DNA of 64,000 nt, from positions 1,211,233-1,275,232 of the forward strand of contig CP003316.1 of the NCBI GenBank assembly GCA_000247545.1. Reading direction: 5' to 3'. The translations under genes and the position numbers were made by a program. Below, one piece after another: positions 25,382 to 48,500 of this stretch (the stretch's first letter is position 1; the number at the start of each line of letters is the position of its first letter). The notes beneath the pieces were generated by a model. It was not told the origin of the DNA and did no database searches. It worked only from the letters and a program-made list of their open reading frames with translations. This stretch comes from Pyrobaculum oguniense TE7 (lineage in GTDB: Archaea; Thermoproteota; Thermoprotei; Thermoproteales; Thermoproteaceae).

Positions 25382-26065
25382 GTGAGGTTAGGAAATAAGG
25401 CCCTTCTGCTTAAGATCATGTTCATAGCCATCGTCGTAGTGGTGTTGAGCATACCTATCCTCTACGCCTATTTCATGTACACGCCTACGGTCAACGTGCA
25501 GTGCGGCATATGCCACACAATGCGGTTTTACGTGGACAGTATCAGCACTCCACATGCAAAATACAGCTGCCTAGTATGCCACGAAATAGACCTAGGCTCC
25601 ATAGCCAACATGATGTGGAAATACGTCGCAGAACAGCCAAAGCCAGAAGCCGTATTTGAGAAATACTACCCCCACAAAGACTTGCTAGAGAGCTGTAACA
25701 AATGCCACACAGAGCCTGAGAAGCTGGCAATACACAAATCACACCTATCTATAGTCGAAACTACGGGTACCTGTAGTATATGCCATGCCATACATATACA
25801 AGACTTCCTACAGCAGTCATGCACAAAATGCCATCCATACCTCGACACTGTTGAAAAACACATGCAGATGCACGGAAGCACAACCGCCCTACTCGCCGTT
25901 GAGAACTGCGCAAAGTGCCACTCTCCCCAGTCACCCGCCTTCGTCCCACCCGCTAATACTTGTCTACAAGGCGCTGCAGAAGGGAAAAGCTGCCTCGCTT
26001 GCCATACGCAACTCAATCCTCCTGATATCACGGGCAAGCGGTGCACCTCTTGCCATTATAAATAG
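25382..26065 (+). CDS. Membrane-anchored octaheme c-type cytochrome (NapC/NrfH-like N-terminus)
   Basis: 227 aa. One N-terminal helix ('IMFIAIVVVVLSIPILYAYF') with no cleavage site is followed by eight CXXCH motifs: CGICH, CLVCH, CNKCH, CSICH, CTKCH, CAKCH, CLACH, CTSCH. The first part 'VQCGICHTMRFYVDSISTPH' followed by 'AKYSCLVCH' matches the NapC/NrfH quinol-dehydrogenase pattern. A paralogue with the same heme layout is at 30259-30963. Role inferred: passes electrons from quinol or the neighbouring NrfD complex outward. Alone under its own promoter. Confidence 0.88.
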   Translation: MRLGNKALLLKIMFIAIVVVVLSIPILYAYFMYTPTVNVQCGICHTMRFYVDSISTPHAKYSCLVCHEIDLGSIANMMWKYVAEQPKPEAVFEKYYPHKDLLESCNKCHTEPEKLAIHKSHLSIVETTGTCSICHAIHIQDFLQQSCTKCHPYLDTVEKHMQMHGSTTALLAVENCAKCHSPQSPAFVPPANTCLQGAAEGKSCLACHTQLNPPDITGKRCTSCHYK

Positions 26066-28633: not shown

Positions 28634-30262
28634 ATGAGATTTTTACTACTGCTACTCCTATCCCCTTTAGCTTTGTCGCTGGCGATATCCCCAACACCTG
28701 GGATACACGTGGAGATAACCAACAAGACAACTCTAACCTACACAACTGACATCGTAATAACGCTGAAAGTAAACAATACACAACTATCTCTAACATACGG
28801 CGTTGACATATACACCATCGCCGTACTCAACTACCAGTTCAAATGCGCAGTAAGCGGCAACAAAAGCATAGTTTACGTCCTCCAAGCCCCCTCCGCCACG
28901 CGTACATTATCCCTCGCCGACGAGACCCGCGACCTGTGTTTAGGCGAAGAGACCTACATAGCCTATCTAAACACCACCTTTGTCTTGCTGAGCAGAGATG
29001 GCAGATACGTGACTTCTTACAACCTCGACGTAGCTAAAGCCGCTAGGGAAAGGGGGGTAGAACTTAGATACACACCCGAGTGGAGGTCGCTGTACTTCCA
29101 AGTAACAACCTCCTACGTAGATAGGTGCAACTGGGTGCAATACGACATCAAGGAGAGGTACGGCGGCGACATCGGAATTATAAAAGTCTTATCCCATGAC
29201 TGCTTCAACCGGTCAAAGGCAGTGCGCGTAGCCTATCAGCCCTACTACCACTACATGGTCAAATACATCAAAGCAGAGGTAACACTAGAAATAGGCAATG
29301 CCACAATTGTAAAAGACATAAGCGGAGGCGGAGAGGTAATTGTGCCAGGTCCCTACGGGCTCTACGGCCCAGTCACTAACCTCACCATACGACTAACCGG
29401 GCCGCAAAACAGCTACGCCATTGACATCTTAAACACAACAGGGCCTATCGTATTAGTGCCCCCAGCCGTGGAGAGGCGCGGCCTCTCCGGAGTAATTGCA
29501 GAAATGCGGCTAGAACAACCCTTCTTAGTATACAGCATCTTGCTAAACGACACTGTTGCCCCCGAGGGCTTGTCAATAGAACTACAACCCCCCGTGCCCT
29601 ACGCCTACGCAGAAGTCACCAAACCGAACATGCTGACACTATACTTAGTGCCCACACAGCCGCAGAGTGTAAACTTCACGCTGAGGTATGTAGGGCCAGG
29701 AGTTGTGAAAGAGGGAAATGTAAGGCTGACGCCGATCCCCGCCGCCCCAATACAGCTGTCAAAACAATTCCCACTAGCTAAAGCCACCTACTACCCCATC
29801 ACGGCGGCTCAGCCACAGCCCCTTGTAAGAATTAACATAGCAAACATAAAGGGCTCCATAGCTGCGTACATAGAGGTAGAGGCCGCGGTTACCCCCAGAG
29901 ACGCACTGGCACCTGTAGTCATTTACATAGCCACATTTACAAACAAAAGCGGAGTACTAACCCCCACATCGCCTAGGCTATACAACTCCACAAACTCCGG
30001 AATCTACAGGGGATATCCTAACAAAACTCTTGTACTTAGATGGACAACGCCTCTGCCGCCAGGCGACTACCAGGAAGTGGTCGTGATAATCTATGGCGAA
30101 AACGTCGCAAAACTCGACATAAAATCAGGAAGCGTATACCTCTTGACATATACACAAACCGGGGCCCAAATGTCCCCGCCGCCTCAGTACGGGGTTGTAG
30201 CTCCTATAATAGCCACCGTCGCCGTTGCCGCGGTTCTAATAGTAGCAATAAAGAGATTATGA
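28634..30262 (+). CDS. Large extracytoplasmic protein with C-terminal membrane anchor, unknown function
   Basis: 542 aa. Start placed at the ATG giving the signal peptide MRFLLLLLLSPLALSLA; an upstream ATG at 28583 would swallow the promoter and spoil the signal. The body is beta-rich with many N-X-S/T sequons (probable glycosylation) and four Cys. It ends with a helix 'VVAPIIATVAVAAVLIVAI' and KRL. No heme motif. It overlaps the octaheme gene (ATGA), so it is likely a surface scaffold or partner of the cytochromes. Confidence 0.7.
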   Translation: MRFLLLLLLSPLALSLAISPTPGIHVEITNKTTLTYTTDIVITLKVNNTQLSLTYGVDIYTIAVLNYQFKCAVSGNKSIVYVLQAPSATRTLSLADETRDLCLGEETYIAYLNTTFVLLSRDGRYVTSYNLDVAKAARERGVELRYTPEWRSLYFQVTTSYVDRCNWVQYDIKERYGGDIGIIKVLSHDCFNRSKAVRVAYQPYYHYMVKYIKAEVTLEIGNATIVKDISGGGEVIVPGPYGLYGPVTNLTIRLTGPQNSYAIDILNTTGPIVLVPPAVERRGLSGVIAEMRLEQPFLVYSILLNDTVAPEGLSIELQPPVPYAYAEVTKPNMLTLYLVPTQPQSVNFTLRYVGPGVVKEGNVRLTPIPAAPIQLSKQFPLAKATYYPITAAQPQPLVRINIANIKGSIAAYIEVEAAVTPRDALAPVVIYIATFTNKSGVLTPTSPRLYNSTNSGIYRGYPNKTLVLRWTTPLPPGDYQEVVVIIYGENVAKLDIKSGSVYLLTYTQTGAQMSPPPQYGVVAPIIATVAVAAVLIVAIKRL

Positions 30263-30963
30263 GGGGCGTGGAGAAGTTGAGAAAAATAGTCACCCCCAAG
30301 CTTCTTTTTGTACTGTTAATACTCGTAGCCATCGTAGCCGCCGTTGGCTTTTGGTTCTACGTCAGGTACGACCCCGGGTCGTCAAGCGTCTGCGCCACTT
30401 GCCACAACATGGTCCCCTTCGTGGCTGACATATCAAAGACCCCACACCGCGGCGTCTCATGCGCCGAGTGCCACAGCCTAGACTTCCCAAGATGGCTCTG
30501 GGTGCAGGTAGTAGAAAACCCAACGCCCCAGCAGATAGCGCAACGCTACGCAACCACAATGTACGGGCAATGCCTCAACTGCCACCCACCTGCAAGTTTC
30601 CCACAGCTCAACATCCACAAAGCGCACGCGGCGTTGGCCGAGAAGCTGAGAGACTGCACCCTGTGCCACAACCCCCACGACCCGCAAGCCATCAGCGCCG
30701 GATGCCAGACATGTCACGAAATTGACAAGGTTTTAAACACCCACATGGCCTTCCACACATACGCCTGGTCAGAGGTGGACATGGGAAGATACGAGGTGTG
30801 CCAAGAGTGCCACAGCCCGTGGGCTAGGTGGTACGCGCCGGTGGGGCCAGACTGCATAGTAGGCGCGGGGAAGGGCGTTCCGTGCATCGGATGCCACGGG
30901 CCTAGGGCAATGCCTTTCAGCCCAGCGCAATTCATAGACTGCGCCAGATGCCACGGCCGCTGA
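30259..30963 (+). CDS. Membrane-anchored octaheme c-type cytochrome, paralogue of 25382
   Basis: 234 aa. N-terminal helix 'LLFVLLILVAIVAAVGFWFY', then eight CXXCH: CATCH, CAECH, CLNCH, CTLCH, CQTCH, CQECH, CIGCH, CARCH. 'VCATCHNMVPFVADISKTPH' shows the NapC/NrfH pattern. Both octaheme genes end with a C...CXXCH...CXXCH arrangement. Coupled to flanking genes by overlap. Role inferred: electron transfer across or along the cell surface. Confidence 0.88.
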   Translation: MRGVEKLRKIVTPKLLFVLLILVAIVAAVGFWFYVRYDPGSSSVCATCHNMVPFVADISKTPHRGVSCAECHSLDFPRWLWVQVVENPTPQQIAQRYATTMYGQCLNCHPPASFPQLNIHKAHAALAEKLRDCTLCHNPHDPQAISAGCQTCHEIDKVLNTHMAFHTYAWSEVDMGRYEVCQECHSPWARWYAPVGPDCIVGAGKGVPCIGCHGPRAMPFSPAQFIDCARCHGR

Positions 30964-32741
30964 TAGTACTACTCCTACTACCCGCCCTAGCCCTATCCCA
31001 GGGCGCTGCGTACGGAATTGCGCTGTATAAAGACGTGGGGGTGCCAGTCGCGGTAGGCGTAGAAGTAGGCCCCGGCAACGGCACCGTGGAGATTAGGGGG
31101 TTGGCATACTACGACCAGCTACTCCTCTTATCCACCACATTTGCGTGTTGGGAAGCCGCCGTATCCTCGGGCCACGACCCATTTGCCCTAAACTACACGG
31201 TCTATATCAACCCCATAGACGCCACTAGGGCGCTTATCGGGCCCAGCCTCTCTCTGGCAGTCGCGGTAGCCGCCTACAACGCCCTCACCCATACGCCGTC
31301 AAATCTGACTATTGCATACACCGGGACGGTGACGCCGGGCGGGTTTGTGGATTTTGTCGGAGGCGTAAGGGAAAAGGCCATAGGCGCAAGGAGGGCCAAC
31401 TTCACTCTATTTGTATACCCGGCGCTCCAGCACTACGACTACAAATTCGAGCTAAGGCCAAGGCTAATCGGTGTCTACGGCACATTAATCAAGGTGCTTA
31501 GAGAGAGGCCGCAAAACTTATCGGACATACTGCCCGTGGCCGAGGTCGGCAATGTCTACCAAGCCTTCGCCATTGCTACAAGCCAGGAATACGACATCTT
31601 CGACAACGTAGAAAGGCTAAACCAAATGGTCACCGCGATGGTTGCGCCGCCACCTGCCGAGAAGCTAGCCGTGTTAAAGAAAGAGGTGCACCGGACAGTG
31701 AATAAAACACTAAAACTGGCGGCTCAGGAAGAGTATAGAGACGTCTTAGCAAACGGAGTGGCGAGGGCCTTGAGCTACTTGCAACTAGGCGAGGAGAGGC
31801 CCGAGCTCGCCACAGAGGCTTATCCAAGAGCCCTACGCGAAGTCCTATACCCCTATTTCTACGCTAGGCTTTTAACAAAAAGCGACGCGGCCATCACCGA
31901 GATGCAGACCTACACCGACGTCATACTGCAAATTGCGGAAAAACTAATGCCGGATGTCGGGAGCGAAAACCTCTGCGACGGGGCCTACGCCCACATGTAC
32001 CTACACACAGCAAAAAACCTCCTACCTCAAGCCGAAAAGTATTTGAGATATTACCTCGCCTTCCACAGCCCAGTCGACGCCGCCTACGCCGCATATGGAT
32101 ACGCCCAGGTGGTATACTACGCGTGGAAGTCTATACTATACGCAGAGCCCCCCAGGGGCAAAGCCGTTGAGCTAAACAAAACCGCCAGCCGCCTCGCCTA
32201 CTATGTAAACGCGGCATTAAACTACGCCGAGCTCTACTCAGCCGCCACCGGCGTAGCATCGCCGCAGTTGCTCGGAGACGCGTCGAGGAACACGCGGCTG
32301 GGAAGTTCGGCGCCGCCGCCGGCGGCAGTTGGATACTACATAGAGGCGCTTAGCAATATTTTGACATACTTCGCTCTCCATCCCTCCTTCCCCAACACAA
32401 CAGCAGTAAAATATCTACATTTTGCAGACGCGCTTTCCCACACGGCAGGTGGCCCCCCACAACTCCTCTACACAGAAAACATAGCCCAAGCCAACCTCAC
32501 GGACATAAACGAAACACGGGTCTACCTACTCGCGAAAATATACGCGTGCAAGCTTGCAGAAAAACTCGCGATATACACCGACACGCCCCCCCGGGAAATG
32601 CCAAAACAGAGAACTACCGCTCTCCCTACGGCCGAGCCGGGCGAGGAGTCTGGGGAATACCTAACACCGCTTGCAGTAACTATAGGAATTATACTGTGTG
32701 TACAAGGACTATACCAACTGTTCAAAAAACATAAAAAGTGA
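30948..32741 (+). CDS. Membrane-anchored extracytoplasmic Lon-like (S16-type) protease
   Basis: 597 aa. Signal peptide 'PLIVLLLLPALALSQGA'. Residues about 100-160 match the Lon proteolytic core: 'GPSLSLAVAVAAYNAL' with the catalytic Ser in GPS, then 'YTGTVTPGGFVDFVGGVREK' with the catalytic Lys, then 'FTLFVYP'. No ATPase domain is present. A long helical domain follows, and a C-terminal helix 'LTPLAVTIGIILCVQGLY' anchors it. It resembles the archaeal serine protease group COG1750. The start overlaps the octaheme gene by 16 bp. Inferred role: quality control or processing of the exported cytochromes. Confidence 0.75.
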   Translation: MPRPLIVLLLLPALALSQGAAYGIALYKDVGVPVAVGVEVGPGNGTVEIRGLAYYDQLLLLSTTFACWEAAVSSGHDPFALNYTVYINPIDATRALIGPSLSLAVAVAAYNALTHTPSNLTIAYTGTVTPGGFVDFVGGVREKAIGARRANFTLFVYPALQHYDYKFELRPRLIGVYGTLIKVLRERPQNLSDILPVAEVGNVYQAFAIATSQEYDIFDNVERLNQMVTAMVAPPPAEKLAVLKKEVHRTVNKTLKLAAQEEYRDVLANGVARALSYLQLGEERPELATEAYPRALREVLYPYFYARLLTKSDAAITEMQTYTDVILQIAEKLMPDVGSENLCDGAYAHMYLHTAKNLLPQAEKYLRYYLAFHSPVDAAYAAYGYAQVVYYAWKSILYAEPPRGKAVELNKTASRLAYYVNAALNYAELYSAATGVASPQLLGDASRNTRLGSSAPPPAAVGYYIEALSNILTYFALHPSFPNTTAVKYLHFADALSHTAGGPPQLLYTENIAQANLTDINETRVYLLAKIYACKLAEKLAIYTDTPPREMPKQRTTALPTAEPGEESGEYLTPLAVTIGIILCVQGLYQLFKKHKK

Positions 32742-32788: not shown

Positions 32789-33934
32789 ATGAATAAGCTC
32801 CCCGCCTTAGTAATAGCGGCGCTCCTACTAGCAGCCGCGGCAAATGCGCTAATAGAATCCTTTAACCACCCGCCCTCGTGCGACGCTTGCCACTCAGATT
32901 CTGTCAGGGCCGATAGCCAAGCCCTCTCGGGACTTACAATGGGGCCAGCCGCGGGATCGTGTGACCCAAGCGAACAGGAATGTGTTTGGAGCCACCAGAT
33001 ACTGACTGGAGTGGACGTGTGGATGGCGTGTGAGAATTGCCACGCTGCCATTGCCAATAGCATCAAGGGCGGCCCCGGCTCTGTACACGCAAGACTTCAG
33101 ACCAATTATGGATGTGCGTGCCACGCAGTTGCCCACGTGGGTTACGGCGACAGCACTAACGGCTACGCCGCCTGTATATACTTCTATGTTCCTCAACTAT
33201 CGGGCACAGGAGTTATAGCCGCCGACAAGTATGGGGGCTTGACGCTACAAAGCAAAAAGCTGTGTTTCAAAGGGCTTCCAGGAGGGACGTATGATATTGA
33301 TACCACCTACTCCACCTGGACTCCGCCGTCCGACATAACCCAGATCAAGGCTGTTTACCTCAATATTAGTTATGTCACATATCCGAACGGAACTGTCATT
33401 GCGCGGTCATTCCTACAGGGCATGCCCGCTAAGAAGGTAGAAATAGACTTCTTCAGCTTGCTGGAGCAGACCCCCATCTTTAGATATGAGTACGGGACTG
33501 CTTATGGCGGAGTCTTGAAGGACCCCTCAGCGCGCACGCACCCGTTGACTGAGAAGGCGCCGACAGGCGAGACCATAATCATGGGCTTGTTTGACATACA
33601 CGACGCCAAATTCTTGTTAGCAGTGCCGTACTTCCCATATTCTAGATATCCCTACTACATACCTGTAGGTGTCAACATCCCAATGACTGCGTGTTTCAAC
33701 TGCCACTTCGTCTATGAGGGGCAAACTGGAACCGCCAAGGTTATGAACATTGGCGGTGTTTGGAAGATAGGCATTCCGGCTGACGTGCTTAACTCGGTTA
33801 CCGACCCGCACAACATAGCTCTTCCGAAGGCGGCTGAGTCGGCTGGCATAGTTCCGAATTTGTCCCTGGTAGCGCTGATTGCCACCGCCACCCTCCTAGG
33901 AGGGGCGTTTGCAATAGTTAAGAGGAGGCTTTAA
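32789..33934 (+). CDS. Membrane-anchored multiheme cytochrome with one CXCH motif
   Basis: 381 aa with a signal peptide ('LPALVIAALLLAAAANA') and a C-terminal helix ending VKRRL. Three canonical sites (CDACH, CENCH, CFNCH) plus Cys109-Ala-Cys-His112 (codons 33113-33124). The middle module 'VWSHQIL...CENCHAAI...SVH...GCACHAVAHVGY...NG' is repeated in the protein at 38051-39538. TATA (CTTAAATATAAA) is about 24 bp before the ATG; a GTGTACA lies 89 bp upstream inside the protease gene. Likely surface electron carrier; comparison with archaeal extracellular cytochrome filaments is warranted. Confidence 0.8.
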   Translation: MNKLPALVIAALLLAAAANALIESFNHPPSCDACHSDSVRADSQALSGLTMGPAAGSCDPSEQECVWSHQILTGVDVWMACENCHAAIANSIKGGPGSVHARLQTNYGCACHAVAHVGYGDSTNGYAACIYFYVPQLSGTGVIAADKYGGLTLQSKKLCFKGLPGGTYDIDTTYSTWTPPSDITQIKAVYLNISYVTYPNGTVIARSFLQGMPAKKVEIDFFSLLEQTPIFRYEYGTAYGGVLKDPSARTHPLTEKAPTGETIIMGLFDIHDAKFLLAVPYFPYSRYPYYIPVGVNIPMTACFNCHFVYEGQTGTAKVMNIGGVWKIGIPADVLNSVTDPHNIALPKAAESAGIVPNLSLVALIATATLLGGAFAIVKRRL

Positions 33935-33947
33935 GAAACAAAAACTT

Positions 33948-35393
33948 GTGTTTTTTCTCCTCCTTGCTTTTTCTCTAGTAATCTTCTCCTTGGTCATATT
34001 CCCCTCTTGGCCGCTTTTCTCCACTATCCCCTTCCTTCTGGGCGCGGCGCTGATTTTTAGGCGCTACTCGTGGTTTCTTGCGACGTATGCGGCTTTCCTC
34101 GCGTTGGTGCTTATGGGCGGCGGGTCGGTGGGCTCTTTGAGCCACGCCTTGGCGTTGTCTATTATCTTTTACATATTGGCCGTGGTGTTTTGGCGTTTCG
34201 GGTATATACTCGTAGCCGCCGGCATCGCCGGGGCGTCTGTAGGCTATGTTGCAGGCGGAGAGCCTCTGCGTGTTTTAGGCCCGTTTTTTGCCTATGTGGC
34301 TCTGGCGGCTTGGGTCGCGTGGCGTCTTGGCGCCGGCAGGGCGGCTTACGTCGTAGGCGGCTCGTCGCTGGTTTTGCAGACTGTTGTGGACCTCTTCGGC
34401 GCTGTGCCGTGGTTTGGGAGTTGGGAAAACGCGCCGCTTCTCTCCCTGTCGCTTATACCTCTTGTGTTTACAGAGGAGGGGAGGCCTCGGTGGAATAGGC
34501 ATGGGGCCGCTGCGTTTGTAATATCGGCGGGGGGCTTGGCTTGGGGTTTATTTAGGCTCTTCGCCGGGAGCCCCCAGGAGTTTGTCTCTGGGACATACAC
34601 GCTGTGGCTAGCCGCGGCGGGCGTCTTGCTTTTTTCGCTGTTTTCATCTCCCCGTAGGTTTATAGGCGGCGTCTTAACGGCGGTGGGGGTATACTTGTTG
34701 GGGTCGTATTTCGCCCCCTATTCTCTCCAGTGGCTTTTCCACACAGTAGCGCCCATTGCTCTTATTTTAGTCGCCGCTGTTTTAAAACCTAGGCCTATCG
34801 TAGCCGCGTTGTTGCTAATCTCGTCGGCCACCGCTTTGATCTACTTCTCCCCTCTAATAGTGCCGCCTCCGTATGTGAATAGCTTTAAGCTAGGCCCAGT
34901 GGCTGTTGGCGAAGACGGCCGCATTTCAGCCGTGTCTAACGGCGTTGTAAAAATAGTGGGGGGTCAGCTGGGGTTTAGGGAGAGCCGCGTTGAGGGGTAT
35001 GTAGATGTTTTCACAGCCGGCGTTGTTTTTAGGGGGCGCCTTGAGGGGGACTTAGATTTCCTTGAAAGCAACGCCGCGGAGGGGGTGTTCTATATTTTTC
35101 CACATGTATTAATTATGCGGCTGTACATGCTAGGCGACGTGTATAAGTCGTATCTCCTCTGCAAACTAGGCTCAGAGCTGGGTGTAGGTTGTGGCGGTGT
35201 CTACGCGTCGTTTATTGTTCAGGTTGTAATACTGGGCGGCGTGCTTCTCTTCGCGTTGTTCTGGTTCGCCGTCCTTGTGGCGCCGGTGGCTTTGTGGTAT
35301 GGGTGGGAGAGGCGGGATTCGCTTCGCCGGCTTCTATCCAGAATTCATGTTATGTCTACTGTACACAGGTTATACATAGACATATATGGATAG
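33948..35393 (+). CDS. Polytopic membrane protein of unknown function in the cytochrome c cluster
   Basis: 481 aa from a GTG. About ten hydrophobic helices fill residues 1-310, followed by a soluble beta-rich domain (about 100 residues) facing outward by hydropathy, one last helix ('VVILGGVLLFALFWFAVLVA') and a basic tail. No WWD domain or heme motif. It lies 13 bp after the CXCH cytochrome and 15 bp before ccmF, so it may assist assembly or insertion of these cytochromes. No family recognised. Confidence 0.65.
   Translation: MFFLLLAFSLVIFSLVIFPSWPLFSTIPFLLGAALIFRRYSWFLATYAAFLALVLMGGGSVGSLSHALALSIIFYILAVVFWRFGYILVAAGIAGASVGYVAGGEPLRVLGPFFAYVALAAWVAWRLGAGRAAYVVGGSSLVLQTVVDLFGAVPWFGSWENAPLLSLSLIPLVFTEEGRPRWNRHGAAAFVISAGGLAWGLFRLFAGSPQEFVSGTYTLWLAAAGVLLFSLFSSPRRFIGGVLTAVGVYLLGSYFAPYSLQWLFHTVAPIALILVAAVLKPRPIVAALLLISSATALIYFSPLIVPPPYVNSFKLGPVAVGEDGRISAVSNGVVKIVGGQLGFRESRVEGYVDVFTAGVVFRGRLEGDLDFLESNAAEGVFYIFPHVLIMRLYMLGDVYKSYLLCKLGSELGVGCGGVYASFIVQVVILGGVLLFALFWFAVLVAPVALWYGWERRDSLRRLLSRIHVMSTVHRLYIDIYG
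35360..35365 (+). promoter_or_regulatory. TGTACA box before ccmF
   Basis: TGTACA centred 46.5 bp before the ccmF ATG (35409), inside the 3' end of the preceding gene. CATATATGG (35381-35389) lies at TATA distance, 24-25 bp before the start. Same spacing as at other members of the set. Confidence 0.45.
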
Positions 35394-35408
35394 CTGTATA
35401 AAATTCCT

Positions 35409-38054
35409 ATGCACTTAACGGGCTACTTGTTATTGCTATCTCTAGCCTTGTACGTGGCGTATTTTGTCTCTACTTTCCGTGTACAGAGGTTTTCAAGTAA
35501 GTTGCTCCTTGTAGCTACGGTTGCGCTTGTCTTGTCGTGGGGTTTATACGCGGCGGCTTTCTTGGCGCAGGACTTCTCCCTAGCCGAGGTTGCCAAGAAT
35601 ACTAACGTTGGTCTCGACTGGTGGCTAAGGCTGGCTGCTTCGTGGTCGAGTACTGGGTCGAGTCTTCTTCTCTTTTCTTTGTTTATTGGGCTGTTCATCG
35701 CCGCGGCGTATTTCTCCGGCGCCAATGTCAATGCGCTTCGTATTTCCACAATTCTTCTTCTACTTGTCGGGGCTTTGACCTACTTGTACGGTACTTTTGA
35801 TACTTTTTCCGTGCCGACCGTCGGCGCAGGTCTCAACCCGCTTCTAAAAAGTTTCTGGATTGCGATTCACCCGCCGCTTGTCTTTCTGGGCTATGCCGGT
35901 GTTTTGGTAATCTCCCTAGGGCTTATCTACGCCGACACCCAGAAATTAAAACGCCTCTTCTACGCGGCGTTGGCGTTTCTCTTCGCAGGGTTGGTGGCGG
36001 GCGGCTACTGGAGCTACGTCACGTTCGGCTGGGGCGGCTACTGGGCGTGGGACCCCGTGGAGACTGCCCAGCTTATGGTGTTTGTGGCTGCCGTGGCGGC
36101 TATCCACGCGCCCGCCGCGTTGGCGCAGTTGAGGAGGTCAGCCTACCTGCTCGCCGTCAGCGGCGTTTTCCTGGCTCTTTTCGTCACACGGACGGGGATG
36201 AGCCCTCTGCACGGCTTCGCCTCGCCGGGGGCTGGGGGGTATTTGCTACTCGCGCTGTCATTGGCGTTTTTCTTCGGCTTTCTCCGCGATTTGTTAATAG
36301 CTAAGTGGGCCCCCGTCCCGTGGAGGAGCGTAGTCACGTTTGTTACAATTTTCGTAGCTGGGCTTCTACTATACGGCTCTTTGCTCATCCCCTCACTCGG
36401 CGTAGCCGCGGGGGTGAACACCTCGCCGCCGCAGATGGACGACGGGATGTGGTTCTACAACCCAGCGCTGTACATCTTAGTAGTGCTTACTCTTATCCTC
36501 GCCCCCCTGATATACCTCGATAAGCTTGGCAAAACGTTCTGGCTCTACCTCGGCACCGGGGCCGCGGCCACGGCGGCTGTGGTTGGGCTTGTGTGGGCAG
36601 GCGTTTTGACTTTTTCGCCTAAGTCGCACATATTGACCAACATGGCAATCGGCGCGGCTCTTGTATGGTCGGCACTGGGAGGCGCCGTTATGCTATACTC
36701 GGCGGCTATTTCTAAGAACAGGACTGTGGTTGTTACTCGGCTTCTGCATTTTGCGCTTCTCCTCTTCTTCGTCGCCGCCGTCTACAGCCTGCCTTTTGCC
36801 TACAACAGAGCGTACTTCGTCGACGCCTACGTGGCGCCCGGCGGCACGTTGAACATACAGGGAATAAAAATTTCGGTTGTAAACTACACTTTGGGGTTAA
36901 TGGGGGATAAGGTGGATATCTACACCGTCTATGGCAATAATGAGGTGTATCAATACGCCCAATTTGGGATGTTGTCTCTTACTAACCTCCTAAACCAGGC
37001 AAAGCCTATGTTGGAAGACGCTGCCAAGCGCGTAGAGAGCGATGCGTTGCTGAGGCTGTTGTTTGACGTCGCAAAGGAGCCGGTTGCGGTGGGCGATATT
37101 AAATGCCGTTTGGCAGATGGGAGGGAGCTCGTTATTACCAACGCGACTTTTGGATCGTACGCCGCCCACGCGGGGGGCGGAGGGCTCTACATGGTGGTGT
37201 ATCTCTTGGGCAACTCGCCGGCCGGCCTTGGCAACCAGACATCCGTGGAGGTGGGAGAGCCATGCGTGGTGAGGGTGGGAGGCGCCGTTGTTAACATGAC
37301 CGGGAGGCTGATGGTGCAGGTGTCTGGAGTCTCTATTGCGGCTGTCCCCATGTCGGCTATAATATCGGCGTCTGAGAGGCGTATTGCCATTCCCTACGTG
37401 CTTGACAATAACTTGACGCTGTTCTACATGACTCTTAGGCCTGGTACGCCGCTGTACGGCCTCCTGAACCTCCCCTACTACAGCCTTTTGTCAAACGTGA
37501 GGTTTGGCCACGCTTTTTTGGAGAAGTTCCCCGGAGTGGTCCCCAGCGGGGCGTACTTAAAGGCGTCGTTGTACATAGACGGCGCCAGGCGCGATGCGGT
37601 TGTGCGGTATGAGGTCAACGGCGAGGTCAGCGGGATACACGGCCTAGTCTCTTCTGTAATCACAACGCCAAGGGGGCTCAGCGATGTTTACATCGCGGTG
37701 TTTACGCCGTATGTAAAAGGCTCTATGTCTTACTACCCGGAGCCGATGATATACTACATCAGCAACGTGTTGAAAACTAAGCCTCCCGAAGACGCGTTGC
37801 GCATCGCGGCTCTGCTCACATCGGGCTTCTACATCGACCAGCTGAGGAGGTCGGGTCAAGACTTCGCCGCGTTTTTCACTACCGCCTATCTCGAAGTGCT
37901 GAACCTCGCCTACGGCTACGACCCCGCCAAATCGCCGGCCTATACCGAGGGGATACACATAACGGTGAAGGAGGTCCCCGCCATAAACATTTTATGGATA
38001 TCGGCGATTGTGGCTGTGGCGCTGTTGTTTATACTGGCCAGGAAAGGGGCGTGA
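35409..38054 (+). CDS. ccmF: Cytochrome c heme lyase CcmF, enlarged
   Basis: 881 aa, longer than E. coli CcmF (647 aa). The WWD domain 'WGGYWAWDPVETAQLM' starts near residue 208, preceded by 'HPPLVFLGYAG'; about 13 helices in the first half. The C-terminal part (about residue 470 on) is a large extracytoplasmic domain ending in one helix. Role: ligates heme from CcmE to apocytochromes. It overlaps the next gene, a CXCH multiheme protein, in GTGA, so the lyase and this substrate are co-translated. Confidence 0.88.
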   Translation: MHLTGYLLLLSLALYVAYFVSTFRVQRFSSKLLLVATVALVLSWGLYAAAFLAQDFSLAEVAKNTNVGLDWWLRLAASWSSTGSSLLLFSLFIGLFIAAAYFSGANVNALRISTILLLLVGALTYLYGTFDTFSVPTVGAGLNPLLKSFWIAIHPPLVFLGYAGVLVISLGLIYADTQKLKRLFYAALAFLFAGLVAGGYWSYVTFGWGGYWAWDPVETAQLMVFVAAVAAIHAPAALAQLRRSAYLLAVSGVFLALFVTRTGMSPLHGFASPGAGGYLLLALSLAFFFGFLRDLLIAKWAPVPWRSVVTFVTIFVAGLLLYGSLLIPSLGVAAGVNTSPPQMDDGMWFYNPALYILVVLTLILAPLIYLDKLGKTFWLYLGTGAAATAAVVGLVWAGVLTFSPKSHILTNMAIGAALVWSALGGAVMLYSAAISKNRTVVVTRLLHFALLLFFVAAVYSLPFAYNRAYFVDAYVAPGGTLNIQGIKISVVNYTLGLMGDKVDIYTVYGNNEVYQYAQFGMLSLTNLLNQAKPMLEDAAKRVESDALLRLLFDVAKEPVAVGDIKCRLADGRELVITNATFGSYAAHAGGGGLYMVVYLLGNSPAGLGNQTSVEVGEPCVVRVGGAVVNMTGRLMVQVSGVSIAAVPMSAIISASERRIAIPYVLDNNLTLFYMTLRPGTPLYGLLNLPYYSLLSNVRFGHAFLEKFPGVVPSGAYLKASLYIDGARRDAVVRYEVNGEVSGIHGLVSSVITTPRGLSDVYIAVFTPYVKGSMSYYPEPMIYYISNVLKTKPPEDALRIAALLTSGFYIDQLRRSGQDFAAFFTTAYLEVLNLAYGYDPAKSPAYTEGIHITVKEVPAINILWISAIVAVALLFILARKGA

Positions 38055-39538
38055 GACTAGCTATAATACTCCTACTACTTTTCTTGTCCGTTGTAGGATA
38101 TGCGTATTATGGAAGCGGCGCGAAATGTGGTAATTGTCACGGAAATAGTAATCCTTGTAGTTGCCACACCATTTCCCTCTCCAATACGGCTCACCAAATG
38201 TTAAATAGCGCGACTTTGGATAGATCTCCCCCACCGCCTAATCAAAGAAGAGGTGATTCTCCGAGTTATTGTAGCTGTCATTGGGGTATTGGCGGTCAGC
38301 CAACAGGCGGCCGCGGCATGTCTCCGTCATGTGTCTGCCACGCCGTAATTCACGTAAATCTCGCCAAGCACGGTGCTCAGCACATCTCAGAAGTTCTTGT
38401 CGAGGGGTATCTGCCGTTAATAAATCCTCCTTACGTTTCGCCTACTTTGGTATATAAACAAGCCAAGATCTGGTATAATTGTACTAATACGGGAGGTAGA
38501 ACGCTTGGAAATTGTCCTCCGAATTTATATAACCTAGTCACCGGACTCTACAATACATTTGGAACGGGCAGTACCAATATAGTCGTCGTGGCGTTGTGGG
38601 ATTGGTACGTCGGCGATGTGGTTTTGTCTTTACCCGGCAGAGGGCCCACCGGGTTGGCCGGCGCTTATGGAAATGTGGGCGATAACAGCTGGGTCAGTTG
38701 TTTCGTCTGCCACTTCGTCTACACAAGCCCGTGGTATGTCGCTGGTATTTACAATACAACGAAGTCTACCGACCAGATCTCAAGATTTGTCCAACATCCC
38801 GACACTTGCCAGCCGTGCCATGGCGTTTCGGCTAATGTAAGGGATAATACTATAAGGACGTCTGTTTGGGCTCACAACATCTTGGGTTATAAGGTCAACG
38901 GCCCCGACGCTATTTGGTCTAACTGCGGCGTATGCCACAGTGCCATCAACAACGTTGTGTCAACAAGCGTCCATTATCAAGTCGGGTGTAAATGCCACTC
39001 CGTTGTCCACATCGGCTATAACTACAACGGCTGGTTAACCGGATTGTACACGTTTGTGGGATCTACCGGCGGGGCCACGCCGCCTTTTGAAACCGTCCCC
39101 TCTATTGCCAGGTTGGCGATGACGTACACGCCCCTCAACGCCTCTAAGGTACTAGGATATCTGGTCGGCAACATTACAAGCGCCTCAGCAGGCGGGAGAA
39201 ACGTGGAGGTAGGGCTGTGGGATGCCTACTCTAAGGATTATCTCTCGACGTTGTTCTATATCGGCACTCCTATCGGTAAATACGGGCTTGGCCCTGAGAG
39301 GGTTTGGACAGCTTGTTTTAATTGTCACTTCACTGCTTTTGACCCCAGCAAAGCGGCGGATCCCCATGCTATAGGGTGGCGCCTCGGCGTAGAGAATAAT
39401 TGGGATACCTCGACAACTCCCTACAAAATAGGCGCTGAGAGAGGCGGAGGTGGGGCTGGCTATGTGAAGTTCTATGCTGGGTTGCTTCTCGCGTTTTCTC
39501 TACTGGGGGGTGGGCTTGTCTGGCTGAGAAAAAAGTAG
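38051..39538 (+). CDS. Multiheme cytochrome with four CXCH and five CXXCH motifs
   Basis: 495 aa from a GTG overlapping the ccmF stop. Signal peptide 'LAIILLLLFLSVVGYAYYG'; C-terminal helix and RKK anchor. CXCH sites: C36-H39 (CSCH), C74-H77 (CSCH), C94-H97 (CVCH), C313-H316 (CKCH). CXXCH sites: CGNCH, CFVCH, CQPCH, CGVCH, CFNCH. Two modules are seen, each ending in CFxCHF; the second ('VWAHNIL...CGVCHSAI...SVH...GCKCHSVVHIGY') matches the 32789 protein. Nine potential heme sites if all are used. Inferred surface electron-transfer protein. Confidence 0.8.
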   Translation: MRLAIILLLLFLSVVGYAYYGSGAKCGNCHGNSNPCSCHTISLSNTAHQMLNSATLDRSPPPPNQRRGDSPSYCSCHWGIGGQPTGGRGMSPSCVCHAVIHVNLAKHGAQHISEVLVEGYLPLINPPYVSPTLVYKQAKIWYNCTNTGGRTLGNCPPNLYNLVTGLYNTFGTGSTNIVVVALWDWYVGDVVLSLPGRGPTGLAGAYGNVGDNSWVSCFVCHFVYTSPWYVAGIYNTTKSTDQISRFVQHPDTCQPCHGVSANVRDNTIRTSVWAHNILGYKVNGPDAIWSNCGVCHSAINNVVSTSVHYQVGCKCHSVVHIGYNYNGWLTGLYTFVGSTGGATPPFETVPSIARLAMTYTPLNASKVLGYLVGNITSASAGGRNVEVGLWDAYSKDYLSTLFYIGTPIGKYGLGPERVWTACFNCHFTAFDPSKAADPHAIGWRLGVENNWDTSTTPYKIGAERGGGGAGYVKFYAGLLLAFSLLGGGLVWLRKK

Positions 39539-39572: not shown

Positions 39573-39593
39573 TCTAGACATCTGTTCTTGCTC

Positions 39594-40526
39594 ATGAATC
39601 TAACTACTCTAATCTACATCCTTGTTGTGCTTGACGTTGTCTCGGCTTTGTATCTTGTCAACTGGGGGCCCTTCCCACTTGTCATTAAGGAGCTGGGGGC
39701 GCCGACTGCTTATCTCAACGTCTACGTGCACGTGCCGGCCGCAATTGTCTTATACATCGCGGCCGCGGTGGCGCTCATCCTTGCTGTTTGGGGCGTCTGG
39801 CGCGGCGCCTCGGAGCGGGTTGTGAAGTGGATGGACTTCTCGGCGTACGCCGTCGCCCTTCTGGGCTGGTACGCCTTTATCAGCGGCACTATCTGGGCCG
39901 CGGAGAGCTGGGGGACTCCCTTCGCGCTTGATCCTAGGCAGATGTCTATCCTCGTCCTCGCCTTGGTCTTTTCAATATACCCGGCGATTAGGAGGGGGGT
40001 TGAAGATCCTGACAGAAGTGTAAAGCTTGCACAGGTTTTCATCATCGCGGGCTTTGTTCTGGTTGTTGTTTCCCTCGTGGCGCCGATTGTGGCCCAAGCC
40101 CTCCACCCGCGACCCGGCAGCACGCTTACCGGCACCATGGGCGCGTATATGGGCGTCAGAATTCTTCTGCTAACAGCGCTTTTCTTCGCCCTATTCTTTT
40201 CAAAGGCTAGGGGCGCCGGGTGGCTCTACGTGGCCGGGGCCTTGGCGGCGGTTTTGCTGATGTACCCCTGGTTTGTGCACCACCCGCTCCGCGTCGTAAA
40301 CGTTACACAAAGCACAATTGTGCTGGAAGACGGCACAACGCTAAACGTCCCGCCAGATAGTGTGCTAAGTCCTGCATTTTTTAACGGAACCCCAACACTG
40401 CCAAAGAATTTCGTGGCGGTGGAGGGCGGCGGAGTTTTCCTTGTGAGGCATTTCAGCGCCTACGTCAACACGGCGCTGTACTTCGCATTTATTTTTATAT
40501 TATTGAAAATTAGGGAGAGGTTATGA
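39594..40526 (+). CDS. ccmC: CcmC-like heme-handling protein
   Basis: 310 aa. CcmC landmarks: 'AYLNVYVHVPAA', then 'SGTIWAAESWGTPFALDPRQ', a degenerate WWD motif in which the inner Trp residues are replaced, and 'QALHPRPGSTLTG'. About eight helices, more than in six-helix CcmC. Family role: delivers heme to CcmE. The ATG at 39594 fits the TATA spacing. Overlaps ccmE by 4 bp. Confidence 0.82.
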   Translation: MNLTTLIYILVVLDVVSALYLVNWGPFPLVIKELGAPTAYLNVYVHVPAAIVLYIAAAVALILAVWGVWRGASERVVKWMDFSAYAVALLGWYAFISGTIWAAESWGTPFALDPRQMSILVLALVFSIYPAIRRGVEDPDRSVKLAQVFIIAGFVLVVVSLVAPIVAQALHPRPGSTLTGTMGAYMGVRILLLTALFFALFFSKARGAGWLYVAGALAAVLLMYPWFVHHPLRVVNVTQSTIVLEDGTTLNVPPDSVLSPAFFNGTPTLPKNFVAVEGGGVFLVRHFSAYVNTALYFAFIFILLKIRERL

Positions 40527-40897
40527 AGAGGTGGGTGTTCGCCGCGGCGCTTATATCGATTTTCCTCGTAGCAGGTGTCATGTCTCTCTACATCGGCACT
40601 CCCATGGACGTCTCCGACTTGAAAAACTTCAAGGGGGGCAAGGTAAGGGTTTCCGGCAAACTTGTGGACTACGGCAGGGCTGGCGACAACCTCTACCTCA
40701 TCCTCAGAGGCCGCGACGGCTTTACCATCACTGCGCTGATACCGTACCAGGAGGTGTTGAAGGTGGCTGGGCCTTCTTTCCAGTTCAGCGACGAGGTGGT
40801 GGTGGAGGGTGTGTACAACCCCGCCAACAAGACGCTTTACATCACCACAATACTAAAGGGTTGCCACTCTGCATACTACGCGCCTGTGAAGTCGTAA
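40523..40897 (+). CDS. ccmE: Heme chaperone CcmE, CXXXY variant
   Basis: 124 aa. N-terminal anchor helix, OB-fold core ('KVRVSGKLVDYG', 'ITALIPYQEV', 'VVVEGVYN'), and near the C-terminus Cys114-His-Ser-Ala-Tyr118. Bacterial CcmE binds heme covalently through His in HXXXY; archaea and some sulfate reducers carry the CXXXY form seen here. Consistent with that, no ccmH or ccmI is found in the window. Confidence 0.88.
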   Translation: MKRWVFAAALISIFLVAGVMSLYIGTPMDVSDLKNFKGGKVRVSGKLVDYGRAGDNLYLILRGRDGFTITALIPYQEVLKVAGPSFQFSDEVVVEGVYNPANKTLYITTILKGCHSAYYAPVKS

Positions 40898-40919: not shown

Positions 40920-40998
40920 TGTTATATAGCAAGACTAATATGGAACTTAACATTTACAGCGCGTGGATAAATTTAATCTTGTCTCGTTTGGTAGATCT

Positions 40999-41574
40999 GT
41001 GATTGAGGTTGTCGACGTGTGGAAGCGGCTGGGCGGCGCGTGGATTTTGAGGGGAGTCAGCCTCAGGGTTAACAGCGTGGTGACGCTTGTGGGGCCCAAC
41101 GGCTCAGGCAAAACTACGCTCGTGAGGATCATCGCCGGGGTTCTTGAGCCAACGAGGGGAGTTGTCCAAGTAGATGGGAGGAGGCCCAAAGTCCCGGCGT
41201 CTCTCCTGGGCGTGGTTTTCCACACACCTATGCTCTACCCCGAGCTCACTGTGCGGGAGAACTTGAAGCTCTTCTCTAAGCTGGCCGGCGGGAGGCTTGA
41301 GGGTTGCCCCCTTGGCGTCTGCAAGGTGTTGGACAGGCCCGTCAAGGCGCTTTCCTTTGGCTGGAAGAGGAGGGTAGATGTGGTGCGGGCGCTTCTGCCA
41401 GACCCGCCTAACCTCGTCATTGACGAGCCCACCACCGGGCTGGATGAGGAGGCTAGGGGGGAGCTCCTCGACATCCTGCGCAGCAGAGGGGCGGCCCTCT
41501 TGACTTCGCCGTTTAGCCTAGGGGTTGGGCAAGAGCTGAGGATTGAGGAGGTTCAGCATGTGGGGGGTAGTTAG
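40999..41574 (+). CDS. ccmA: CcmA-like ABC transporter ATPase
   Basis: 191 aa from GTG 40999 (VIEVVDVWKRLGG). An in-frame GTG at 40963 is possible, but 40999 has a TATA-like element 26 bp upstream and gives the normal N-terminus. Walker A GPNGSGKTT, Walker B 'LVIDEPTTGLDEEA'. The signature loop is LSFGWKRR instead of LSGGQ-type, and the H-loop region reads LLTSPFS with no His. Role by family: with CcmB, releases heme-loaded CcmE. Overlaps ccmB. Confidence 0.82.
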   Translation: MIEVVDVWKRLGGAWILRGVSLRVNSVVTLVGPNGSGKTTLVRIIAGVLEPTRGVVQVDGRRPKVPASLLGVVFHTPMLYPELTVRENLKLFSKLAGGRLEGCPLGVCKVLDRPVKALSFGWKRRVDVVRALLPDPPNLVIDEPTTGLDEEARGELLDILRSRGAALLTSPFSLGVGQELRIEEVQHVGGS

Positions 41575-42106
41575 GGCTGATCTCACAGCGGCGTTTAGGA
41601 GAGTTGAGGAGTTGGTTTTCATATTTGTGGCCAGCGTGGCGGCAGGGGTGTTGGGCTCCTTTGCGGGGGCTATGTCCATCTACTTAGTGGCGCTTCTCTC
41701 GTCGCAGTTAGCTGCTTATCTCTACGTGATTAGGGACTGGGACCGCGGCGTGTTGGAAGGCCTAATATACTACATTGGCCACGTCGGTGTCTATATCTCA
41801 AAGCTTGTGGTTGCGTGTGTCGTTGCGGTGTCGGCCACTGTGTTGGCGTCGCTGTTTATCGACATCGCCGCGGCGCCCTCAGCCGCCGTGGCCGCTCTGC
41901 TCTTGTCCGCTACCAGCTCCCTGGCAGCCCTCTTCGCCGTCTACGGCGGACTTCCCCCGCCCGCCGCCACGGCAATGGCGGTTGTGCTCGCGCTACCCCC
42001 CGTTGTTGCTATTGTGAGAAGTGGTGTTGAGGTTGTGCAACTAGCCGCTACGGCGTTGGTCATCGTTGTGGGCGTACTTACGTCTGCGTTGTTGGATAGG
42101 TCATGA
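41558..42106 (+). CDS. ccmB: CcmB-like ABC transporter membrane subunit
   Basis: 182 aa with about six helices. Start at the ATG preceded by GAGGAGG (a Shine-Dalgarno-like stretch inside ccmA); a TTG 15 nt earlier is an alternative. N-terminal 'VVRADLTAAFRRVEELVFIF' and the following helices fit CcmB in order and position, but sequence conservation is weak. Overlaps ccmA by 17 bp and the thioredoxin-CcdA gene by 4 bp. Confidence 0.7.
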   Translation: MWGVVRADLTAAFRRVEELVFIFVASVAAGVLGSFAGAMSIYLVALLSSQLAAYLYVIRDWDRGVLEGLIYYIGHVGVYISKLVVACVVAVSATVLASLFIDIAAAPSAAVAALLLSATSSLAALFAVYGGLPPPAATAMAVVLALPPVVAIVRSGVEVVQLAATALVIVVGVLTSALLDRS

Positions 42107-43233
42107 GGTTCTTGGCGATTTTGCTGGTGTTGTCTCTTCTCCTCTCTGCGGCATATGTGGAGAAGGGGTCTCTTCGATTCCAGCTCGTGGACTCGCCTTA
42201 CGATGTGGAGGGCAAGTTTTTCCTCTACATATACCAGCCTCTGTGCGAGGAGTGTAAGAAGTTAGAGGCTTTGTTCGGTAGGGAGGACGTTGCTGCGGCG
42301 TTGTCGGGATATAGGTTGTATGCTCTTGACTTGTCGAAATCGGGCGTTGCCGCAGTCGACGTCTATGTGGAGGGACAGGTAGTATATGTAGATCACGGAG
42401 TGGTTAAGTACTTCGCCGCATCTGGGAGGAGGAGTTTTCTAATTCCCGGAACGCCCACAGTGTTGATCGGCATTAAGGAGAACGGCACGGTGAGACTTCT
42501 AGGTTTTTGGACTGGGGCTGATATGCCGCCTGGCGAGGACTTGGGTGCGGCGTTTGTGCGTTTTCTAGGCGAGGTGTCGGAGTCCGGTAGTGCGGCTGAG
42601 TCGGGTTACCGCGTTGATGTATTATGGGTGTTTCCGCTTGCGTTTATCATGGGCGCCGTAAGCGCTTTTTCGCCCTGCGTATTGCCGGTTCTCGGCATAG
42701 CGTCGGTTACGCACTTCGCGAGGAGGAGTCTGGGCAGAGTTCTAGCAGGCATGGTGGTTTCTTACGCGGCTATCGGCGCGTTAGTGGCGGCGTCGGGCGT
42801 GGCGGCGGCTTCCGTAAGGCCCTTGCTTGCGGCTATAGGCGGCGTCCTACTCGTGGCGCTGGGCGCAGTTCTCTTAGTAGAGAGACTTAATGTAAAGTAC
42901 GCCACTGCTATGTCTAGGGTTCAGACCTCTGCATATAAAAAGCTCTCCAAGGCCGGGGACTTCCTGGTAGGAGTGTCGCTTGGCGCTGTGTGGGTTCCAT
43001 GTATTCTCCCCTATATGGGCTTTGCCACTGTGCTGGCCCTCATATCGCTTGCGGGGGATTATCTCTTGTTGCTAACGGCTCTGCTGATGTATGGAGGGGG
43101 ACTTGCGTTGATGGTATACGTAATTGTTAGGGGACTTCTTAAACGTGTGAAACCGAAGAGGTGGTATGAGAAAGCCGTGGGTGTTTTATCGATTCTAATC
43201 GGCTTTTACCTCGTGGCGTCGGTATGGATTTAG
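42103..43233 (+). CDS. Thioredoxin-CcdA fusion (thiol-reductant exporter)
   Basis: 376 aa. Signal helix, then a thioredoxin-like domain with Cys48-Glu-Glu-Cys51 ('PLCEECKKLEALF') and 'FLIPGTPTVLIG' carrying the cis-Pro. From about residue 180 the six-helix CcdA domain follows with 'SPCVLPVLG' and 'VPCILPYMG', the paired Cys of CcdA. Role: moves electrons from the cytoplasm to keep apocytochrome cysteines reduced for heme ligation. The fusion of thioredoxin in front of CcdA is the reverse order of DsbD's C-terminal thioredoxin. Confidence 0.87.
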   Translation: MRFLAILLVLSLLLSAAYVEKGSLRFQLVDSPYDVEGKFFLYIYQPLCEECKKLEALFGREDVAAALSGYRLYALDLSKSGVAAVDVYVEGQVVYVDHGVVKYFAASGRRSFLIPGTPTVLIGIKENGTVRLLGFWTGADMPPGEDLGAAFVRFLGEVSESGSAAESGYRVDVLWVFPLAFIMGAVSAFSPCVLPVLGIASVTHFARRSLGRVLAGMVVSYAAIGALVAASGVAAASVRPLLAAIGGVLLVALGAVLLVERLNVKYATAMSRVQTSAYKKLSKAGDFLVGVSLGAVWVPCILPYMGFATVLALISLAGDYLLLLTALLMYGGGLALMVYVIVRGLLKRVKPKRWYEKAVGVLSILIGFYLVASVWI

Positions 43234-45532: not shown

Positions 45533-48500
45533 ATGTCACTTACTAGACGCGATGTTTTAAAAACTGGCGTCGCCTTAGGTATGGCGGGTGGGCTAGCTGG
45601 TTTTGCGATAAAGACCGTAGCCGAAACTACAGCGGCGCCGCAGTCCGAGTCTAAGGCAACTATCGTCTCTATACCCTCTATATGCGGTATGTGCATGGCG
45701 CAGTGCGCCATCTATATAGATGTAGTTAACGGCAAGCCGGTGCGCATTAGGCCTAACACAAACGCCCCAACCAGCGCGATTGGGATATGTGCCAGGGGAG
45801 TCTCAGGCACGTTTAATACGTGGCTAAACCCCGACGCCATTAAGAAACCCATGGCTAGGAAAGCCCTTGTCGACTGGGCCCAAGGCAAAATCTCATGGGA
45901 GGAGGCCAAGAGGCAGATAGCGCAGAGCCGCGGGAAGTACGACGACATGGCGGAAGTAGACTGGAACACCGCTATCGAAATCATCGCGAAGAAGCTCAAG
46001 GAGCTTGCCGACAACAACGAGCGCCACGCCTTCACCTTCCTATTCGGCGCCTGGGGCCCCACCGCCTCTATGCGCGCCGGCGTGCCCATATCCAGATTCG
46101 CCGACACTTTCGGCGGCGGAGTGATCACCTTCGACAACCCCTACTGCACCTACCCCCGCTACCTCGGCCACTGGCTGACCTGGGGCCACGGCCACCAAGC
46201 CCACACCGTCTGTGTCGACTACGGCGAGGCGGAGGCCATACTCGTAGTTAGGAGGAACGTGATTGGCGCAGGCGTCGTGACGGAAACTTGGCGCTTTATG
46301 GAAGCCGTGAAGAGGGGGGCAAAGCTGGTGGTGCTAAGCCCCGTCTTCGACGAGACTGCCTCATATGCCACTGTGTGGCTTCCGGTGAAGCCCGGCACAG
46401 ATCTCGCAGTCCTCTTGGCATTAATCAAATATGTCCTCGATAATGGATACTACATAGAGTCCTATCTGAGGACCTACACCAACGCTCCGTTTTTGATAAA
46501 AGAAGACGGCTTGCCTCTCCTCGCCACGGAGGTTGCCTGGGATAAATACGGCTTGCAGGAGCCCCAGGGCTTTGCCTACGTGGTGTGGGACCTCGCGGCC
46601 GGCAAGCCTGCTCCCGACAACGCTGCGAGGCAAGCCTCTTTGTTTGGGCAGTATGAGGTGCAGCTCAAGGACGGCTCCGTCGCCAAGGTGAAGACGGCGT
46701 TGACTATACTTAAGGAGTGGGTTGACGCGAATCTCGCAACCCTGGCGAAGAAGCACGGAGTAGCCGACTACATGGAAGCCGTAGCTAAGGAGGCTGACAT
46801 CGATGCGAACGACTTGAGGAGAGCCGCCGAGATTGTGGCAAGGTACCGCGCGGTGGCGCCCATAGGTTGGCACGATCCGCGCTACAGCAACTCGCCGCAG
46901 ACCTGGAGGGCGGTGGGCATCTTAATGGCCCTCCTGGGCAGAATTCAGCAACCAGGCGGGTTGTTCTTGCTGACTCATCTAATAATGCCGTATTCCGGCA
47001 TTTACACACGCGTGATGAAGTACGTGAGGAAGGATGTGCCGTATAAGACCATCCGCGGCATGACCTTCTCTGAGTACGTCTCCGCCAACCTGCCGGCTAT
47101 ATATGTAATACCTGTGGCCCCGCCGCTTCCCGGCCCCTCAGACCGCGGCGCCCCGCCGGTGCCGGCGCTTGTAGAGAAGTGGGCTGAGGAGGCTGAAAAG
47201 CAGGGCTACCTCTACCCGTACGACACAGTCCAGGCGCTTTACGAGAGCGTTGTCCACGGCAAGCCGTTTAAGACAAAGGTGGTCTTCATCACGGGGTCTA
47301 ACCCAATTCCGCAGATAGGCAACAGCAAACTGGTAGAGGAGATTTTCCGCAACGTCGACCTTGTCATTGTCCACGACATACAGTTCAACGACACTACTGC
47401 CTTCGCCGACGTGATTCTACCCGACATCCCCTACCTAGAGAGGATGGACCTCGCGCTCCCAGGCCCGTTCTCGCCGTTTCCAGCCATCTCCGTGCGGTTC
47501 CCCTGGTATTACGAGGAGTACATGAAGAGGTTGCAACAGGGCGAGAAGCCGGGGGAGCTGGACAAGAAGTTCAGGTCGCGCGACGGGAGGACCATTTTCG
47601 AGGTTTTGTTGATGATTGCCAGGAGGCTACAGCAGATGGGAGTCAAGGCGAGGGACGGCACCGACTGGTCCCAGAACATGCCCGTGGGGATGATAACGGA
47701 AGACGGCATCTTCCCCATCTCCAATTTGAGAAACTTCATAAACGCCACGTTTAGGAGAATTAGGATTATTGACGAGAACGACCAAGTAAGGGCGCCGACT
47801 GTGGACGATTTGTACAAGATGGGCGGCTACATGGTGTTAGTCCCCACGGGCAGAATAGAAACTGTAGTGGACGAGAGGTGGAGCCAAGCGCTCGGGCGGG
47901 AGGTAAGGGTGAGGGTGCACGTGTATAAGCCTGTCCAGTATACTGTAGACAAGGAGGCTTGGCTGTGGCGCGTCGTCCACTACAACTCCCCCATCACACA
48001 TGGCCAAGTGCCTCTCCCAACGCCGAGCGGAAAAGTCGAGATCTACAGCATTAACCTGGCGTACGACGTCAAGAGGGTATTCGGCAAGCCTGCGACCTCG
48101 ATAGATCCGTCTGACCTTGAGGGGACTAAAAGCGGCATCGACCCCTTGTTCTCGACAATACCGCTCTACGCCGGCATGGCTAGGCCGGACTACATGTGGG
48201 CTACCGGCCCGCCAACGCCAGACATCAAGGTGAACGGCCTAGTGACGCCGGAGCCGCCAAAGAAGCTGTTGCTGGTTTACAGGCACGGGCCCTATACCCA
48301 TACCCACAGCCATACGCAGAATAACATGTTGCTTAACACGCTGACTCATGACGAGTTGCTGATGGCGTGGATCCACCCGGACACCGCGGCTAAGCTAGGG
48401 GTGAACGACGGCGATGTGATAGAGGTGAGGCCAGCGGCGCCGAAAGTCCTTGAACAGTTAAAGGCAGTGGGCGTAGGCGAGGTACCTGCGGCGAGGTTTA

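Follow-up and report, generated by a model that had tools for sequence, protein, structure and literature searches.

The closest described system is PcECN (A3MW92, PDB 8E5F), the nanowire subunit of Pyrobaculum calidifontis, which has been described as tetraheme (PMC11936953; PMC12203936) and for which intra-subunit disulfides have been mentioned (PMC11341803). AvECN of Archaeoglobus veneficus (F2KMU8, PDB 8E5G) is likewise a filament of archaeal tetraheme cytochromes, and its hemes stack in a similar way (PMC12203936). OmcS, OmcE and OmcZ of Geobacter are alike in function, being polymerised multiheme cytochromes; however, their subunits are unrelated (PMC12203936), and OmcZ carries an atypical motif with a more extended loop, CX14CH (PMC11208441). 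Here, we compare with these systems two multiheme proteins encoded at 32789-33934 and 38051-39538 of a 64,000-nucleotide stretch of the Pyrobaculum oguniense TE7 genome (contig CP003316.1, positions 1,211,233 to 1,275,232; hereafter the window, whose numbering is used throughout). Both proteins contain, besides CXXCH heme motifs, motifs with a single residue between the cysteines (CXCH). With a probability of about 0.88, CXCH is a working covalent heme c site in the PcECN/AbcA archaeal cytochrome nanowires.

Atypical heme c motifs are known, some of which need dedicated lyases (PMC3601427, PMC12285233). CXXCK, CX14CH, CX15CH and the single-cysteine motifs depart from CXXCH by longer spacing or by replacement of the histidine or one cysteine, whereas CXCH has a shorter spacing, of a single residue. 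A 2024 paper treated non-canonical heme motifs as those with more than two spacer residues (PMC11208441), and the FEET pipeline lists CXCH among its heme-motif patterns (PMC11218250). This pattern use was the only relevant mention of CXCH found in the searchable literature, which did not include the 2023 structure paper in Cell. No description of family-wide CXCH conservation, of a double-module predicted nonaheme protein or of spacing interchange was found there.

Two CXCH-containing proteins in the window

The features of the two proteins are given below; CXXCH sites were assigned from the sequence and, in the C half of the larger protein, also from the module alignment.

32789..33934, + strand: AbcA/PcECN-type tetraheme nanowire subunit, 381 aa, with an N-terminal signal segment and a C-terminal hydrophobic helix
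32879..32893, + strand: CXXCH site 1, CDACH
33029..33043, + strand: CXXCH site 2, CENCH
33113..33124, + strand: CXCH site 3, CACH in YGCACHAVAH, residue 109; CXCH in 8/8 single-module homologues
33692..33706, + strand: CXXCH site 4, CFNCH
38051..39538, + strand: double-module paralogue, 495 aa, predicted nonaheme (5 CXXCH + 4 CXCH)
38126..38140, + strand: N-half site, CGNCH
38156..38167, + strand: CSCH, residue 36; CXXCH in three orthologues
38270..38281, + strand: CSCH, residue 74; CXCH in 3/4 orthologues, the entire loop being gone in the fourth
38330..38341, + strand: N-half site 3, CVCH (CVCHAVIH), residue 94; 5/8 N halves CXCH, 3/8 CXXCH
38699..38713, + strand: N-half last site, CFVCH
38807..38821, + strand: C-half site 1, CQPCH
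38924..38938, + strand: C-half site 2, CGVCH
38987..38998, + strand: C-half site 3, CKCH (CKCHSVVH), residue 313; CXCH in 7/8 C halves
39314..39328, + strand: C-half site 4, CFNCH

Sequence comparison identifies the 32789 protein as the orthologue of the P. calidifontis nanowire subunit. Its sole solved-structure match over the full length was 8e5f_A (phmmer, 1.2e-144, residues 1-380 versus 1-383), to which it is 61% identical. The two share the four motifs, their order (CXXCH, CXXCH, CXCH, CXXCH), the CACH and the extra cysteines, with no difference of substance. Orthologues were found in three Thermoproteaceae genomes, with one full-length match per genome. The orthologue retrieved from genome G002 by family search equals 8e5f_A at all 385 residues; therefore, G002 is P. 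calidifontis and the 32789 protein is the orthologue of PcECN. A first-pass annotation of this DNA, made from the sequence alone, had guessed that these proteins could be nanowire components, which was right for the smaller one. In a profile search of the PDB, the PcECN-family profile matched no chain of 8E5G, and neither window protein belongs to any family in the Pfam and NCBIfam libraries.

The 38051 protein gave no match in a PDB sequence search. Its heme module is nevertheless common to the 32789 protein, as supported by reciprocal matches near 4e-6, invariant alignment columns and the tree. The C half has its four motifs in the same order as the subunit, and the N half repeats the module and carries one additional motif, which makes the protein a tandem-duplicated paralogue; with two modules and nine motifs, it falls outside the group of single-module subunits. 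It is probably a nonaheme cytochrome, as predicted from its five CXXCH and four CXCH motifs. Consistent with this, it contains 18 histidines, two for each of the nine motifs, matching what bis-histidine ligation of nine hemes needs. Translation reproduced exactly the CACH of the smaller protein and the CSCH, CSCH, CVCH and CKCH of the larger one that had been annotated earlier, and alignment upheld the block VWxH...CxxCHxAI...SVH...GCxCHxVxHxGY as common to both.

CXCH as a heme site

The sequence of 8E5F holds exactly three CXXCH motifs and one CACH, with no further CH pair. Since four hemes are published and only three CXXCH are available, the CACH would carry the fourth heme by elimination. 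The first-pass annotation had offered a new heme attachment motif as one reading of CXCH; its function as a heme site is supported here, but the site is not wholly new, being already present, by the same elimination, in a solved filament.

Proteins of the 32789 type and of the 38051 type were each found in eight archaeal genomes (Thermoproteaceae and Pyrodictium-type). Site 3 was compared, with our own assignments from the alignments, in 24 modules: the eight single-module proteins and the N and C halves of the eight double proteins. CXCH was present at this site in 20 modules and CXXCH in the other four. The single-module proteins all had CXCH (8/8), as did seven of eight C halves (CSNCH in G511) and five of eight N halves (CTRCH, CTNCH and CLVCH in G445, G511 and G532, respectively). 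In a maximum-likelihood tree built from the 24 modules, well-supported branches force at least two spacing switches at site 3; one of these sets apart the C halves of G511 and G532, which are sisters in the tree. A further switch occurs inside the window protein, where the CSCH at 38156 is replaced by CLNCH, CTACH or CLSCH in three orthologues; compared with the CLSCH of G014, the second cysteine and the histidine lie equally far from the preceding motif. A conserved histidine four residues past the motif histidine accompanies CXCH and CXXCH forms alike. Because the spacings swap at one position, they are most simply two forms of one heme site. Furthermore, the fetched loci encode 17 further multiheme proteins, with 135 CXXCH in all and no CXCH, so CXCH is a trait of the PcECN/AbcA family. 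Weak module-profile matches in other Pyrodictium-type genomes (e.g., L055-L058) proved to be different multiheme proteins without CXCH and were not counted. A scan of genome contigs yielded only two loci, both from metagenome-assembled genomes and both also reached by the genome search.

As in CXXCH, thioether bonds to both cysteines of CXCH are most likely, and the histidine after the second cysteine would be the proximal ligand. We built an idealised peptide-heme model with fixed bond geometry and clash and Ramachandran terms, joining the sulfurs to the vinyl carbons and the histidine to the iron. CXCH and CXXCH reached zero penalty, and CCH kept a residual of 1.5. The negative control is mild, and the model shows no more than that geometry does not preclude two thioethers. 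In the Pyrobaculum and G014 subunits, 12 cysteines comprise eight in motifs and four others, fitting intra-subunit disulfides. Four Pyrodictium-type subunits (G213, G408, G445 and G439) have exactly eight cysteines, namely those of the four motifs, with both CXCH cysteines among them.

Several points weigh against the reading of CXCH as a heme site and the picture built on it. The CACH is given its heme by elimination from a published count, and the nine hemes of the double protein are a prediction from the motif count. The two thioethers are drawn from conservation and from a rough geometric model in which the negative control showed only mild strain. AlphaFold2 models of both proteins were too poor to help (shallow alignments; mean predicted local distance difference test score 33-34). 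The suggested base or connector role of the double protein comes only from gene position and duplication.

A heme bound by non-standard chemistry, either through a single thioether to the second cysteine or through a thioether plus a persulfide bridge offsetting the shorter spacing, is an unlikely alternative to two ordinary thioethers. In favour of such chemistry, altered spacing gave heme linked via an extra sulfur (reviewed in PMC3601427), and the archaeal cytochrome c maturation (Ccm) system is reported without CcmH and CcmI (PMC9084895). However, both cysteines were retained in 20/20 site-3 CXCH modules, and the four subunits that lost all non-motif cysteines kept the first cysteine of CXCH, which a single thioether would let drift; the idealised geometry also allows two ordinary thioethers. 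Attachment of this kind by a reportedly CcmH-less archaeal lyase would constitute a natural heme c class, with four copies in the double-module protein, but we regard this as improbable. No account of the motif spacings accepted by archaeal Ccm was found in the literature searched.

Even less probable, to the point that we rejected it, is that CXCH binds a metal (Zn, Cu or Fe-S) or forms a redox-active disulfide, so that heme numbers would equal the CXXCH counts. CXC motifs do bind metals in other proteins. However, 8E5F has a published count of four hemes against three CXXCH, and an ordinary CXXCH stands in place of CXCH in four modules at site 3 and in three orthologues at 38156. For the single-module subunit, the structure with four hemes already contradicts a metal or disulfide site in large part. 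The earlier suggestion that CXCH binds something else is therefore not supported by the heme count and the interchange of spacings.

A sequencing or annotation artefact is refuted by conservation, as the spacing is repeated in four Thermoproteaceae and five Pyrodictium-type genomes with frames open throughout. The first-pass annotation had taken CXXCH in homologues as a sign of sequence error. Homologues of this kind do exist (4/24 modules at site 3 and 3/4 orthologues at the 38156 site), but they reflect interchange rather than error, because CXCH is the majority form at site 3 across many genomes.

Chance origin of the motifs was also rejected. Across the 2.45 Mb genome (2,452,920 bases, two contigs), the DNA pattern TGYNNNTGYCAY occurs 105 times and its reversed control 112 times. 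It thus shows no genome-wide excess, but five of its occurrences lie in frame in two genes spanning 5.9 kb. When the 38051 protein was shuffled with all CH pairs and CXXCH motifs preserved, four CXCH were reached in 0 of 100,000 shuffles (mean 0.12). The lone CACH of the 32789 protein is not significant by itself (5.5%), yet it is kept in all eight single-module homologues.

Heme counts based on the CXXCH pattern, on which cytochrome surveys rely, thus fall short for these proteins, giving three instead of four and five instead of the predicted nine. A natural, conserved one-residue spacing limits how a heme lyase can read its substrate: archaeal Ccm, reportedly without CcmH, must handle spacers of one, two and perhaps eleven residues.

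Role of the double-module protein

In the proposed mechanism, the smaller protein would be a filament subunit with four stacked hemes, the third on the CACH, whose polymer would carry electrons outside the cell. The larger protein, a tandem duplicate of the module with nine predicted sites, four of them CXCH, and encoded in the same cluster as the Ccm genes, might pass electrons between membrane and filament. Its position by the filament subunit and Ccm genes makes this double-module, predicted nonaheme paralogue a concrete candidate for the membrane-filament link.

Alternatively, the double-module protein could build a second filament type of its own rather than sit at the base of the AbcA filament, cap it or connect it. 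The shared module, the C-terminal hydrophobic helix and the signal-like N-terminus, which the 38051 protein has in common with AbcA, favour this possibility, but two modules per chain could equally end or link a filament, and we consider a separate filament doubtful. Two metagenome-assembled genomes yielded the double form only; both are incomplete and decide nothing on this role.

In G014 (L021:9219-11984), the double-module cytochrome lies in one frame of 922 aa with an upstream multi-spanning membrane protein. Unless a sequencing error removed a stop, this frame is a natural fusion and suggests a membrane partner for the cytochrome. The fused membrane part showed no similarity to the membrane protein at 33948-35393 of the window (BLASTP at 1e-4). 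In G213 (L046:8275-9747, residues ~275-288), the second site of the C half is C-X11-CH (CSGASGVDSTLSCH), where relatives have CXXCH. The PcECN/AbcA family may thus accommodate 1, 2 and perhaps 11 residues between the cysteines.

Gene neighbourhood and putative Ccm genes

The gene order in the window runs from an octaheme cytochrome through Fe-S and NrfD-like subunits, a 559-residue protein, a second octaheme cytochrome and a secreted Lon-domain protein to AbcA. It continues with a membrane protein, CcmF, the double protein, CcmC, CcmE-like, CcmA-like, CcmB-like and DsbD-like proteins, and HemA. The genes for the membrane protein and the maturation proteins are as follows.

33948..35393, + strand: multi-spanning membrane protein; no family match, kept in the operon in Pyrobaculum
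35409..38054, + strand: CcmF-type heme lyase; Pfam Cytochrom_C_asm 5.4e-16, NCBIfam nrfE/CcmF 1.7e-27 (below cut-off)
39588..40526, + strand: CcmC-type protein; Pfam Cytochrom_C_asm 1.7e-11, NCBIfam ccmC 1.3e-12 (below cut-off)
40523..40897, + strand: CcmE-like protein of the archaeal System I* type, with cysteine in C-X3-Y (CHSAY); named by motif and operon position, orthologues in the same place
40963-41574, + strand: CcmA-like ATP-binding cassette ATPase; NCBIfam ccmA 2.4e-26 (below cut-off)
41543-42106, + strand: CcmB-like membrane protein; named by position only
42103..43233, + strand: DsbD/CcdA-like thiol reductant protein; weak NCBIfam DsbD match, 2.5e-5

CcmF and CcmC pass the Pfam Cytochrom_C_asm cut-off. 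The CcmE-like protein had no profile match in Pfam or NCBIfam; it and CcmB were named by motif and position only. Archaeal Ccm has been reported without CcmD, CcmH and CcmI (PMC9084895). A search of the P. oguniense genome with PF09699 gave no match.

The block is conserved in P. calidifontis and G003, and also in G014, where it is rearranged. In G213, both cytochromes lie near Lon-like and octaheme genes; however, none of the window's ccm genes was matched in the 28 kb taken around them, so the ccm linkage is not general.

Immediately 5' of the nanowire gene, the product of 30948-32741 is predicted to be secreted, contains a partial Lon (S16) domain of the protease type and could process the filament subunit; its relatives are encoded in the same neighbourhood in Pyrobaculum, in G014 and in G213, a Pyrodictium-type genome. 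Just 3' of the maturation cluster lies a large molybdopterin oxidoreductase (45533-48721) with a weak twin-arginine translocation signal match. The paralogous octaheme cytochromes (25382-26065 and 30259-30963; c7-like, with an N-terminal membrane anchor) lie on either side of the Fe-S and NrfD-like subunits. In most of the lineages examined, their relatives are encoded next to the nanowire gene, and they may feed electrons to the nanowire.
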